Origin: Evansella cellulosilytica DSM 2522
GTDB taxonomy: Bacteria > Bacillota > Bacilli > Bacillales > Salisediminibacteriaceae
Direction: 5' to 3'
Length of the DNA stretch: 64,000 bases
Assembly (NCBI RefSeq): GCF_000177235.2
Contig: NC_014829.1
Coordinates: 3,906,001-3,970,000 of the forward strand
A program made the translations under genes and the position numbers. Below, piece by piece: positions 10,668-45,254 of this stretch. The notes beneath the pieces are model-generated. The model was not told the DNA's origin. It did no database searches and saw nothing but the letters and a program-made list of their open reading frames with translations. How positions within the stretch are numbered: position 1 is the first letter of the stretch; each line of letters starts with the position of its first letter.

Positions 10668-12209
10668 CTATTTACCTTTATCTTTTGTACCTCTAACCTT
10701 TTCCTTGTAAAGCTTTACTGCTTCTTTTGAATCTCCATCAAATTTTATTTCGCCGTTTTCAATCCAAATTGCTCTTGTACAAACTTTTTCAACAAACCCC
10801 ATACTATGTGACACAATTATAACCGCTTTTGCACTTTCCATCATCTCCTGGATCTTTTCACTTGCTTTTTGTTTAAATGATATATCCCCAGTAGATAAAG
10901 CTTCATCTATAATAAATATATCTGGTTGTAATGTTGCTGCAATACTAAATCCTAATCTAGATTTCATTCCACTTGAATATTCTTTAACTGGTTTATTTAT
11001 TGCCTTGCCAAGTTCAGAAAATTTAACTATATCATTATAATCCCGATTCACTCTATCCTTTGGTATACCTAACAACATTCCGTTTAAGTATATATTATCA
11101 CTACCCGTTAATTGTGCATTAAATCCAGTCCCATACCCCAATAGTGCTGTAGTTTCACCATTTACTTTAAGAACGCCTTTATCAGGAGTAAGAATTCTTG
11201 TTAATACTTTACAAACAGTACTTTTTCCAGCACCATTATGCCCAATTATCCCAACAACTTCTCCTTCATTAATCTTAAAATTAATATCTTTTAAAGCCCA
11301 ATGTTTCCCTTTTTTTATATTATATGACACACTAAGATTTTCAGCCTTAATTATTGTAGTGTCTCTTATTATAGATTCTGTTTTTTTTAGATCTAACTTT
11401 CTCTTTTTCTTTGTTTTTTTTTCTGGTAATGTAGACTGATATCTTTCTATGACATCCTTTGGATTTCCTACTTCTTTAATAATACCCTTTTCCAACCAAA
11501 TCAAGCGATCGCAATTAGTTTCAGCATATTTTAGACTATGTGTTACTAAAATGACCATTTTTGCTTTTTTAACTAGTTCCTTTATCTTCACAGCTGCTTT
11601 TTCACTAAATTCCTTATCACCTGTGTTTAAAGCTTCATCAAGAATTAAAATTTCTGGTTCTAGATATGCTGCAACGCTAAAACCTAAACGAGCCCTCATT
11701 CCACTTGAATAATATTTCATTGGTTGGTCCATAAAATCACCAACTCCTGAAAATGCATGAATTTCATCTATAGATTCATGAATTCTTTTTTTGTCTATAC
11801 CCAACATCATTCCATTAAGATATACATTTTCGCGTCCAGTGAGAGATTTATTGAATCCCATCCCTAAGGAAAATAAAGCTGACACTTTTCCTTTAACTTG
11901 AATTTCTCCTTCATCAGGATTAAGAATACCTGATAGTATCTTACACAGTGTTGTTTTACCAGAGCCATTTGAGCCAATAATACCTAATATTTCACCTCTA
12001 TAACCTCTAAAGTTTAAATTCCTTATTGGCCACACTACTTTACCTTCGGCATCTTCATCATTTTCCTTTTTCTTAAAAAAATTAATTACGTGTGATTTAT
12101 AATCATCTTTATATCCAGAAACAAAAGATGCACCAAGATTCTCTGCCTTTATTACTACTTCTTTATTTTGATCATATTCATTCAGTCTATTCATCTTATT
12201 AAATGACAT
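10668..12209 (-). CDS. Polysaccharide/teichoic acid ABC exporter ATPase with two nucleotide-binding domains
   Basis: A 513-aa cytoplasmic ATPase of the TagH/Wzt type. The first NBD (about residues 17-255) has Walker A GSNGSGKTT, signature YSSGMRARLGFS and Walker B ILILDEALNTGD. The second (about 285-510) has GHNGAGKST, YSSGMKSRLGFS and IFIIDEALSTGD. Most TagH or Wzt proteins have a single NBD, often with an extra C-terminal domain; here two full NBDs are joined by a lysine-rich linker and there is no carbohydrate-binding tail. Both NBDs look catalytically intact. The gene lies 15 bp downstream of the single permease gene, so one fused ATPase probably serves a permease dimer. It would drive transport of an undecaprenyl-linked polymer across the membrane. 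Confidence 0.9.
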   Translation of the reverse strand: MSFNKMNRLNEYDQNKEVVIKAENLGASFVSGYKDDYKSHVINFFKKKENDEDAEGKVVWPIRNLNFRGYRGEILGIIGSNGSGKTTLCKILSGILNPDEGEIQVKGKVSALFSLGMGFNKSLTGRENVYLNGMMLGIDKKRIHESIDEIHAFSGVGDFMDQPMKYYSSGMRARLGFSVAAYLEPEILILDEALNTGDKEFSEKAAVKIKELVKKAKMVILVTHSLKYAETNCDRLIWLEKGIIKEVGNPKDVIERYQSTLPEKKTKKKRKLDLKKTESIIRDTTIIKAENLSVSYNIKKGKHWALKDINFKINEGEVVGIIGHNGAGKSTVCKVLTRILTPDKGVLKVNGETTALLGYGTGFNAQLTGSDNIYLNGMLLGIPKDRVNRDYNDIVKFSELGKAINKPVKEYSSGMKSRLGFSIAATLQPDIFIIDEALSTGDISFKQKASEKIQEMMESAKAVIIVSHSMGFVEKVCTRAIWIENGEIKFDGDSKEAVKLYKEKVRGTKDKGK

Positions 12210-26094: not shown

Positions 26095-26114
26095 CAAATA
26101 AAAGGCACTGAAAT

Positions 26115-26885
26115 GAACCCGGGTTCCCTGCAACCCGGGTTCGTTTCCCTCACCTTCAATCTCCCTTTTTCTCACTCATTCTCTCGGTTTGAACCTGATA
26201 CTTTTCAACCCGGGTTCCCTTCAACCCGGGTTCGTTTCCCTCACCTTCAATCTCTCTTTTTCTCGCTTATTCTCTCGATTTGAACCTGATACTTTTGAAC
26301 CCGGGTTCCCTGCAACCCGGGTTCGTTTCCCTCACCTTCAATCTCTCTTTTTCTCGCTCGTTCTCTCGGTTTGAACCTGATACTTTTGAACCCGGGTTCC
26401 CTTCAACCCGGGTTCGTTTTCCTCACCTTCAATCTCCCTTTTTCTCAATCATTCTCTCGGTTTGAACCTGATACTTTTGAACCCGGGTTCCCTCCAACCC
26501 GGGTTCGTTTCCCTCACCTTCAATCTCTCTTTTTCTCACTCATTCTCTCGGTTTGAACCTGATACTTTTGAACCCGGGTTTCCTGCAACCCGGGTTCGTT
26601 TCCCTCACCTTCAATCTCTCTTTTTCTCGCTTATTCTCTCGGTTTGAACCTGATACTTTTGAACCCGGGTTTCCTGCAACCCGGGTTCAATCACCTCACC
26701 TTCAATCTCCCTTTTTCTCGCTCGTTCTCTCGATTTGAACCTGATACTTTTGAACCCGGGTTCCCTTCAACCCGGGTTCGTTTCCCTCACCTTCAATCTC
26801 TCTTTTTCTCGCTTATTCTCTCGATTTGAACCTGATACTTTTGAACCCGGGTTTCCCGCAACCCGGGTTCAATCACCTCACCTTC
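26115..26885 (+). repeat. Hairpin array 1: nine 91-bp tandem units
   Basis: Core units begin at 26115, 26206, 26297, 26388, 26479, 26570, 26661, 26752 and 26843, exactly 91 bp apart. Each 28-bp core is GAACCCGGGTT, six variable bases, AACCCGGGTTC; the second unit starts C instead of G. Loops seen include ccctgc, cccttc, ccctcc, tcctgc and tcccgc. The other 63 bp are pyrimidine-rich, contain CTCACCTTCAA after the core and TTGAACCTGAT before it (a partly paired outer stem), and differ slightly between units. The array lies between the 3' ends of two convergent genes. Short open frames within it merely reflect the repeat and are not genes. Confidence 0.97.
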
Positions 26886-30141: not shown

Positions 30142-30464
30142 CCTTCCCCTCCAAACATTCATCACTCTTTTGCACTTGCATAACAATAATCATACTGTTT
30201 TTTCATCATAAATGAAACAATTTCTGACAGGTAATGCGAGTAGTAGTCATCTCCTCACCATTTTACGATATTCCCCTGGAAATAATATGTTTATTTTTTA
30301 TATTTTTTGTAAAATCATGCGATTCATTGTATTCCTAAAGAAACTTTGATTTAGACATACTGATATTAGCTGCCTCTTATTGCGGAAAGGAAATTATAAT
30401 CTCCTCTTCCATTTTTACGGAAATGTCTGTATACTTTAAATTGAAAGAAAATTGAATAGCAATA

Positions 30465-32505
<2,041 letters not shown>

Positions 32506-44094: not shown

Positions 44095-44290
44095 ATTAAC
44101 ACCCATCCTTTTTGTCTAAATAATATGTCGGTAAGATATATAGGATATATGGTATCACAAACAGATTTGGAATAGGGAGATATTGTCGAAAAAATTAAAA
44201 TTTTGTTGAAAAATGTGATTTATTTAATTGACAGCTAGATGTACCTCGTCTTCAGGCGCTCTCATGCTCGCGTTTCCTCGCGATTTGAAG

Positions 44291-45254
44291 GTGAGACTTT
44301 TGAACCCGGGTTACAACTAACCCGGGTTCGTTTTCCTCACCTTCAAACGCTCTCATGCTCGCGTTTCCTCACGTTTTGAAGGTGAGACTTTTGAACCCGG
44401 GTTACACTCAACCCGGGTTCGTTTTCCTCACCTTCAAACGCTCTCATGCTCGCGTTTCCTCGCGATTTGAAGGTGAGACTTTTGAACCCGGGTTCGAACT
44501 AACCCGGGTTCACTTCCCTCACCTTCAAACGCTCTCATGCTCACGTTTTCTCACGTTTTGAAGGTGAGACTTTTGAACCCGGGTTCACTCCAACCCGGGT
44601 TCGTTCCCCTCACCTTCAAACGCTCTCATGCTCGCTTTTTCTCACGTTTTGAAGGTGAGACTTTTGAACCCGGGTTCACTCTAACCCGGGTTCATTTTCC
44701 TCACCTTCAAACGCTCTCATGCTCGCGTTTCCTCGCGATTTGAAGGTGAGACTTTTGAACCCGGGTTACAACCAACCCGGGTTCATTCCCCTCACCTTCA
44801 AACGCTCTCATGCTCGAGTTTCCTCCTGTTTTGAAGGTGAGACTTTTGAACCCGGGTTACATTCAACCCGGGTTCGTTTTCCTCACCTTCAAACGCTCTT
44901 ATACTCACGTTTCCTCACGTTTTGAAGGTGAGACTTTTGAACCCGGGTTACAACTAACCCGGGTTCATTTTCCTCACCTTCAAACGCTCTCATGCTCGCG
45001 TTTTCTCACGTTTTGAAGGTGAGACTTTTGAACCCGGGTTACAACTAACCCGGGTTCGTTTTCCTCACCTTCAAACGCTCTCATGCTCACGTTTCCTCCT
45101 GTTTTGAAGGTGAGACTTTTGAACCCGGGTTCACTCTAACCCGGGTTCGTTTCCCTCACCTTCAAACGCTCTCATGCTCACGTTTCCTCGCGTTTTGAAG
45201 GTGAGACTTTTGAACCCGGGTTCACTCTAACCCGGGTTCACTTCCCTCACCTTC
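44291..45254 (+). repeat. Hairpin array 2: eleven 91-bp tandem units
   Basis: Cores begin at 44302, 44393, 44484, 44575, 44666, 44757, 44848, 44939, 45030, 45121 and 45212, an exact 91-bp step. Each core is GAACCCGGGTT, a variable six (acaact, acactc, cgaact, cactcc, cactct, acaacc, acattc), AACCCGGGTTC. Around it lies a perfect outer stem TTGAAGGTGAG / CTCACCTTCAA, separated from the inner stem by six T-rich bases on each side, giving a 62-nt two-tier hairpin and a 29-nt spacer. In the last unit the outer arm ends at CTCACCTTC. The array lies between the 3' end of the AEC transporter gene and the start of the chemoreceptor gene, and is non-coding. Confidence 0.97.

Follow-up and report, generated by a model that had tools for sequence, protein, structure and literature searches.

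A tandem hairpin array of Evansella cellulosilytica that resembles the BIME repeats of RAYT transposases

REP repeats and their RAYT transposases are best studied in Proteobacteria. The classical REPtron is described as two inverted REPs that flank the RAYT gene on both sides (PMC2817692), and the REP palindrome as bearing a GTAG (or CGTC) tag at one end (PMC3733652). Clusters of the BIME-2 type from E. coli, Stenotrophomonas, and Xanthomonas consist of head-to-tail units with opposed arms and two intervening segments (PMC2817692); in Pseudomonas, a REP doublet forms one long hairpin, the REPIN, which is reported to persist as a population with its RAYT (PMC3116915, PMC8049555). The Y1 transposases of IS608 and ISDra2 act on the lagging-strand template (PMC6006769), and cleavage of single-stranded REP DNA has been reported for the RAYT of E. 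coli (PMC3733652). RAYT literature mostly covers Proteobacteria, Cyanobacteria, Bacteroidetes, and others; the term "Firmicutes" is absent from the main texts of PMC2817692, PMC3733652, and PMC6006769, and two Geobacillus genome papers give RayT genes only as tabulated counts (PMC9693769, PMC4847372). No description of the arrays considered here was found for Bacillaceae in the literature searched, subscription journals lying mostly outside it.

The window is the whole 64,000-nucleotide stretch analyzed from the chromosome of E. cellulosilytica DSM 2522 (genome G000), which is a single contig of 4,681,672 bases. Array 2 occupies 44250–45254 of the window, where Tandem Repeats Finder (TRF) reports a 91 bp period, 11.0 copies, and 91% matches, as expected from the eleven units at a 91-bp step described by an earlier, sequence-only reading; the plus strand is pyrimidine-rich and the minus strand purine-rich. 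Each unit can form a two-tier hairpin and is modular, with four 11–12-bp boxes, the outer pair inverted, followed by a spacer phased at 10 bp. By DNA folding, the two-tier 62-nt hairpin of unit 1 spans 44285–44346 (+) and comprises boxes A to D; the start proposed previously, 44291, falls within its left arm, while the outer arms and the core are present as had been described. On the plus strand, box A is the left outer arm TTGAAGGTGAG (44285–44295) and box D the right outer arm CTCACCTTCAA (44336–44346), both defined from the sequence and from arm comparison. Between them lie box B, GAACCCGGGTTA (44302–44313), which contains the palindromic AACCCGGGTT, and box C, TAACCCGGGTTC (44318–44329), which is placed 16 bp from box B and is simultaneously a direct and an inverted copy of it; the pyrimidine-rich spacer of unit 1 (44347–44375, +) features CTC-like modules phased at 10 bp. 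Folded as single-stranded DNA, the unit-1 62-mer has an energy of −23.4 kcal/mol; shuffled versions average −6.5 (z −8.3), and 0 of 200 fold as well. The arrangement is that of a BIME-2, having tandem units, inverted arms A and D, and two alternating kinds of spacer, namely the loop and the spacer proper. Array 1 (26114–26885, +; 8.5 x 91 bp by TRF) belongs to the same family, with 8 of 11 outer-stem positions paired. The window also contains a TPP riboswitch at 30458–30572 (+; 75.4 bits), upstream of an ORF starting at 30637.

A BLAST search of array 2 against its own genome finds at least 11 arrays, all with period 91, which hold 2.3 to 16.5 units each and 82.8 (about 83) when summed. The 10-mer AACCCGGGTT has 164 genome copies against 0 for the control; 162 are within the 11 arrays and the other two are at 1.61 Mb, in or near an apparent array remnant. 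Each unit displays two palindromic boxes 16 bp apart, and the repeats are multi-copy, located between ORFs, and palindrome-forming, as REPs are; the GTAG/CGTC head, however, is missing from the array 2 consensus (read by eye) and from the units of this genome, although GTAG is seen at the hairpin start in G033 and near the hairpin in G011. The outer stem had been considered special to array 2, but by TRF consensus it is perfect (11/11) in four of the eleven arrays, with 10 pairs in three (the count for L163 being taken directly from its consensus), 9 in two, and 8 in two, array 1 among the latter.

At the DNA level, matches are found in 3 of 100 related genomes, G000 counted. A sequence-only profile of 26 units has matches in 7 of the 9 genomes of the genus at E 0.01 (G000 counted) and, at E 0.001, in 8 of the 35 from the family; the sole match outside Evansella at the latter threshold lies about 400 bp from the RAYT of that genome. 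G002 and G006 (the latter 76% complete) give no match to the profile at E 0.01 despite having RAYT homologues. Arrays or solo units occur in six further Evansella genomes and arrays in three genomes of a second genus, array counts outside G000 being lower bounds; G007 and G008 have mostly solo or few units. The units of these relatives have the same build with a different sequence: boxes of 11–12 bp about 15–17 bp apart, the outer two inverted, and then a pyrimidine spacer, with one inner box or up to four in some units. The inner boxes are direct repeats in G005, G007, and G009, both direct and inverted in G000, and inverted in G008 and G033; in several species they step by 15 bp as direct repeats. 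Integron attC arrays likewise line up hairpin sites in tandem, each with an outer and an inner pair of boxes, the inner boxes being inverted; the direct inner boxes of G005, G007, and G009 do not conform to that pattern.

The period is 91 bp in G000, G033, and G020, 103 in G010, and 89 in G005; G001 has 89 in most of its arrays and 104 in one, and G003 and G004 have 101, with 86 in three arrays of G004. Period identity, emphasized by the sequence-only reading, thus extends to all 11 arrays of G000 and is lost between species (86, 89, 101, 103, 104). The differences 86 to 101 and 89 to 104 equal one 15-bp box step, and the difference between 91 and 101 may represent one additional 10-bp spacer module. 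CTC triplets are phased in 49 related arrays, with 196 pairs at 10, 20, or 30 bp against a shuffle mean of 14. In the consensuses of 49 arrays, which are related and so not independent, CTC spacings within the unit are almost only even, with odd spacings near zero. A box-pattern scan of genome contigs returned 79 stretches, with a regular 89-bp step from E. tamaricis only; most of the other stretches are single sites and look like chance.

The outer arms differ among species and are nevertheless complementary at 79 of 88 positions across eight species representatives; with permuted arm partners the mean is 42 of 88, and the fraction of permutations reaching 79 is 0.0003 (13 arm pairs were picked visually from printed units, and the permutation used one for each species). 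Across all 13 pairs, 9.3 of 11 positions are complementary within a unit versus 4.7 across species, with imperfect stems in some units, including two from G001 with 7 and 9 of 11. The test for covariation that had been suggested for the outer stem is therefore answered in favor of it. Of the proposed constraint on stem and period, the outer stem holds through this complementarity between species; the period is species-variable, and the inner hairpin, regarded as the strongest feature when the sequence was first read, is not general, as the inner boxes of G005 and G007 are direct repeats and unpaired as arms. RNAalifold gives a consensus energy of about zero (−0.09 kcal/mol) for 26 units of three species, which indicates that covariation of the outer stem becomes visible only once more distant species are included. 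With this fold and no Rfam match at the gathering threshold for the window arrays, assignment to a structured RNA family was rejected.

The array at 4384151–4385653 of G000 sits 219 bp downstream of the gene for a 191-aa Y1 transposase, which is 432 kb from array 2. This protein matches PF01797 (E 1.3e-12), and the NCBIfam model for REP-associated tyrosine transposase is the top match for all seven RAYTs scanned, at 49–69 bits under a cutoff of 80; a 12-sequence RAYT profile has 4er8, TnpArep, as its sole PDB match (E 1.2e-6). The HUH histidines and the Y---NP tyrosine motif, given as the signature of the class (PMC6006769), are invariant in 12 of 12 RAYTs. A tandem array with an 86–103-bp period lies directly downstream at 7 of 23 RAYT loci (G000, G003, G004, G005, G010, G020, G033), a long-period array being absent by TRF at the other 16; the flanks of all 23 were screened for exact inverted repeats and by TRF, and 12 were read by eye. 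Repeats with a 15-bp period adjoin the RAYT at three more loci, L215 and L238 (G009) and L224 (G024). Those in L224 run head to tail for 7.5 copies, and those in L238 for 4.3 copies upstream and 7.6 downstream, at a pure 15-bp box step. Palindromes on both sides of the RAYT are found only in G007 and G011 among the 23 loci, and those of G007 (GGTGCCAGGCACT) differ from the boxes of its dispersed units; no repeat was found upstream of the RAYT of G000, where the association is one-sided. Of 35 family genomes, 25 encode a RAYT homologue, and no array was found in most of these; a RAYT alone does not imply an array.

A RAYT is located beside atpC (ATP synthase epsilon, PF02823/PF00401) with collinear neighbors in G000, G005, G008, G010, G020 (by tblastn), G024, and G033, which span two genera. 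A long-period array accompanies five of these seven RAYTs, with a decayed repeat in G008 and none in G024; identity of the proteins to that of G000 is 40–52%, while most neighbors are above 70% and a few at 46–69%. The RAYT-array pair of G003 and G004 occupies another common place, where the RAYT is 64% identical versus 94–99.7% for the other neighbors. Eight array sites are common to G003 and G004, and four more are common to other species pairs; as contigs of G001 end in arrays, three of these four were assessed by one flank only. Unit similarity inside a genome averages 0.65–0.82 for G000, G001, and G005; for G003 and G004 it is only 0.35–0.40, several unit types coexisting there. At the four orthologous sites between species it is 0.13–0.20, no higher than between different species generally. 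Six of the eight sites shared by G003 and G004 have a value, three at 0.72–0.79 and three at 0.25–0.48, as TRF gave no unit for 4 of 53 arrays and two shared sites are without one. By these sequence comparisons, the repeats at the four orthologous sites are species-specific and the arrays are homogenized within a genome. One orthologous site has five units in G003 versus one in G004, a difference of 403–404 bp, which is four 101-bp units to within a base; an empty-site comparison of L181 of G004 with G003 is not clean, as the site coincides with a rearrangement. Recent copying without constraint, which had been named as the finding that would undo the constraint reading, is partly borne out: arrays are homogenized within the genome, but with an architecture that is maintained and a transposase gene adjoining one array.

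In all 44 arrays of G000, G003, G004, and G005 the purine strand coincides with the G-rich strand of the flanks, as it does in 13 of 14 further arrays, or 57 of 58 in total, the exception being L212 of G001 at a contig end; sites common to several species are not independent events, and some local skews are near zero (−0.005 at L192 of G005, −0.011 at L183 of G004). With the leading strand taken from skew only, the purine strand is the leading (lagging-template) strand in 57 of 58 arrays. Strand was set by a model, except for G033, G020, and G010, where it was set by eye from the spacer; the entries from G007 and G008 in the added set are solo or short. The count of 44, for polarity and gene context alike, leaves out low-scoring model hits in G003 at 134027, 350384, 1157266, 3157138, 3388401, 3530589, and 4168149, in G004 at 2792592, and in G005 at C24:3025; C4 of G005 joined the added set; further arrays of G004 at 214513–215389, 262639–262905, and 552521–552993 are outside the oriented set. 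In gene context, judged from ORFs (six G001 loci at contig ends gave none), 22 of the 44 arrays are tandem with the purine strand sense, 16 convergent, 3 tandem antisense, and 3 divergent. Convergent gaps are enriched (16/44 versus 56/369 background gaps; Fisher p 0.0013) and divergent gaps rare (3/44). The 6 of 44 arrays lying antisense or divergent to their neighbors maintain the polarity as well; being kept whatever the gene orientation, the polarity follows replication rather than transcription.

Array 2 is probably a REP/BIME-type array of a RAYT system that is processed on the lagging-strand template. In favor of this are the identity of the RAYT, its adjacency to arrays, the place beside atpC retained across two genera while RAYT and boxes diverge, the concerted evolution of units, the polarity, the whole-unit copy difference at one site, and the covarying outer stem. 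In common with REP/RAYT systems, the repeats are many-copy, extragenic, and hairpin-prone, a transposase of the same Pfam and PDB family lies beside a cluster, and the outer arms keep their complementarity. The boxes of E. cellulosilytica, however, are without the GTAG head and the repeats lie on one side of the RAYT, for which reasons the units are not filed as classical REPs; inner boxes that may be direct, and strict tandem arrays with replication polarity, are further differences. The units share with BIME-2 the head-to-tail order, opposed arms, and two intervening segments, but have four boxes per unit, a 10-bp modular pyrimidine spacer, and an exact period; with REPINs they share one long hairpin and a population alongside a RAYT, though as tandem arrays rather than dispersed doublets. 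The Y1/HUH chemistry of IS200/IS605 elements (IS608, ISDra2) on the lagging-strand template predicts an orientation bias, whereas no self-mobile element was seen here and the RAYT stays at its chromosomal site while diverging quickly. Array 2 is best read as a Bacillota variant of REP/BIME, in a form undescribed in the literature searched, and the name RAYT-associated BIME-like arrays is proposed.

Mechanistically, the RAYT is hypothesized to recognize the boxes (the outer stem and/or the 11–12-bp inner boxes) on the purine strand when this is single-stranded at the fork; the behavior of IS608, ISDra2, and the E. coli RAYT makes the purine strand exposed at the fork the likely substrate. Cutting and rejoining there would add, remove, spread, and homogenize units; slippage and gene conversion may share in their gain, loss, spread, and homogenization, and insertions would persist chiefly at 3' ends and in gaps between convergent genes. 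A secondary role for the host is possible by analogy with BIMEs, for which binding of gyrase or nucleoid proteins, or insulation of convergent transcription, has been reported or proposed. Counting against the RAYT reading are the missing GTAG/CGTC head and one-sided repeats of G000, the NCBIfam scores under the curated cutoff, the RAYT loci and genomes without an array, the RAYT-flanking palindromes of G007 that differ from its dispersed boxes, the lack of profile matches in G002 and G006, the several unit subfamilies of G003 and G004, the exceptional L212, and a polarity that also fits a host function selected for direction. An extended version is regarded as unlikely: a tamed transposase, fixed next to the ATP synthase operon, would co-evolve rapidly with its satellite arrays across the genome, the pair serving a host function in which the protein reads replication direction via single-stranded units on the lagging-strand template. 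Arrays and protein would then be the bacterial equivalent of a satellite DNA with its fast-evolving binding protein.

The boxes could instead be double-stranded sites of a host DNA-binding protein (a nucleoid organizer, gyrase-type, or LexA-like), with the arrays kept by the host as landmarks and the RAYT incidental; the two palindromic boxes 16 bp apart in each G000 unit, the direct inner boxes at a 15-bp step in several species, and the CTC phasing would suit such sites. At orthologous sites, however, the boxes vary in length and sequence from species to species, the 11-mer box breaks the spacing of the LexA consensus GAAC-N4-GTTC, and a RAYT adjoins an array, which leaves this account improbable. 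The arrays may also be considered polar chromosome elements selected for direction, for example in DNA translocation during sporulation or at the fork: 57 of 58 have the same orientation relative to GC skew, and the leading strand carries purine-rich GAG motifs reminiscent of SpoIIIE-type sequences. Roughly ten arrays per genome, irregularly placed, would be sparse for a translocation guide, and the lagging-strand targeting described for the Y1 transposases of IS608 and ISDra2 (PMC6006769) predicts polarity without selection; this explanation is considered very unlikely. An RNA-level device, in which hairpins of 3' untranslated regions terminate transcription or protect mRNA, would account for the enrichment between convergent genes and rarity at divergent ones, and for the strong hairpin of G000. 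It is highly improbable given the consensus fold of about zero, the inner stem missing in G005 and G007, the lack of an Rfam match at the gathering threshold for the window arrays, and the six of 44 arrays that are antisense or divergent. Neutral minisatellites that spread through slippage and recombination, independently of the RAYT, are scarcely credible: they would explain the whole-unit copy change at one site and the homogenized arrays, but slippage alone does not account for dispersal to 11 sites, for arrays beside a RAYT at both atpC and the unrelated G003/G004 locus, for the box architecture kept during sequence turnover, or for the polarity.

Other candidates were rejected. The periods of 91, 89, and 101 bp are not multiples of 3, and the array 2 frames of at least 60 aa are 68 aa long and themselves repeated, against a coding repeat; a plasmid origin gave no match, a phage origin none in one exact-pattern scan of viral contigs, and CRISPRs were not found according to the genome paper (PMC3617157).

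At a RAYT locus that two genera have in common, the turnover of protein and repeat can be traced together, so that natural swaps could reveal how a RAYT recognizes its repeat. The polarity of 57 of 58 arrays permits a direct test of lagging-strand action, and the atpC locus makes the taming of RAYTs for host use a testable question.

Several other repeats were observed alongside the family. In G005, two tandem arrays with a 51-bp period, unrelated in sequence, adjoin a short array of the array 2 family (L032, 1795–2541), and in G001 a run of 16 GGTGTTC heptamers directly precedes another (L036, 1369–1480). A separate dispersed high-copy repeat of about 175 bp is present in G004 (L181, about 11825–12000) and at some 30–40 places in G003. 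The Omnitrophota MAG STF1_189 displays the paired-box pattern on five contigs (L087, L108, L133, L138, L144), which suggests a palindromic repeat family of its own.
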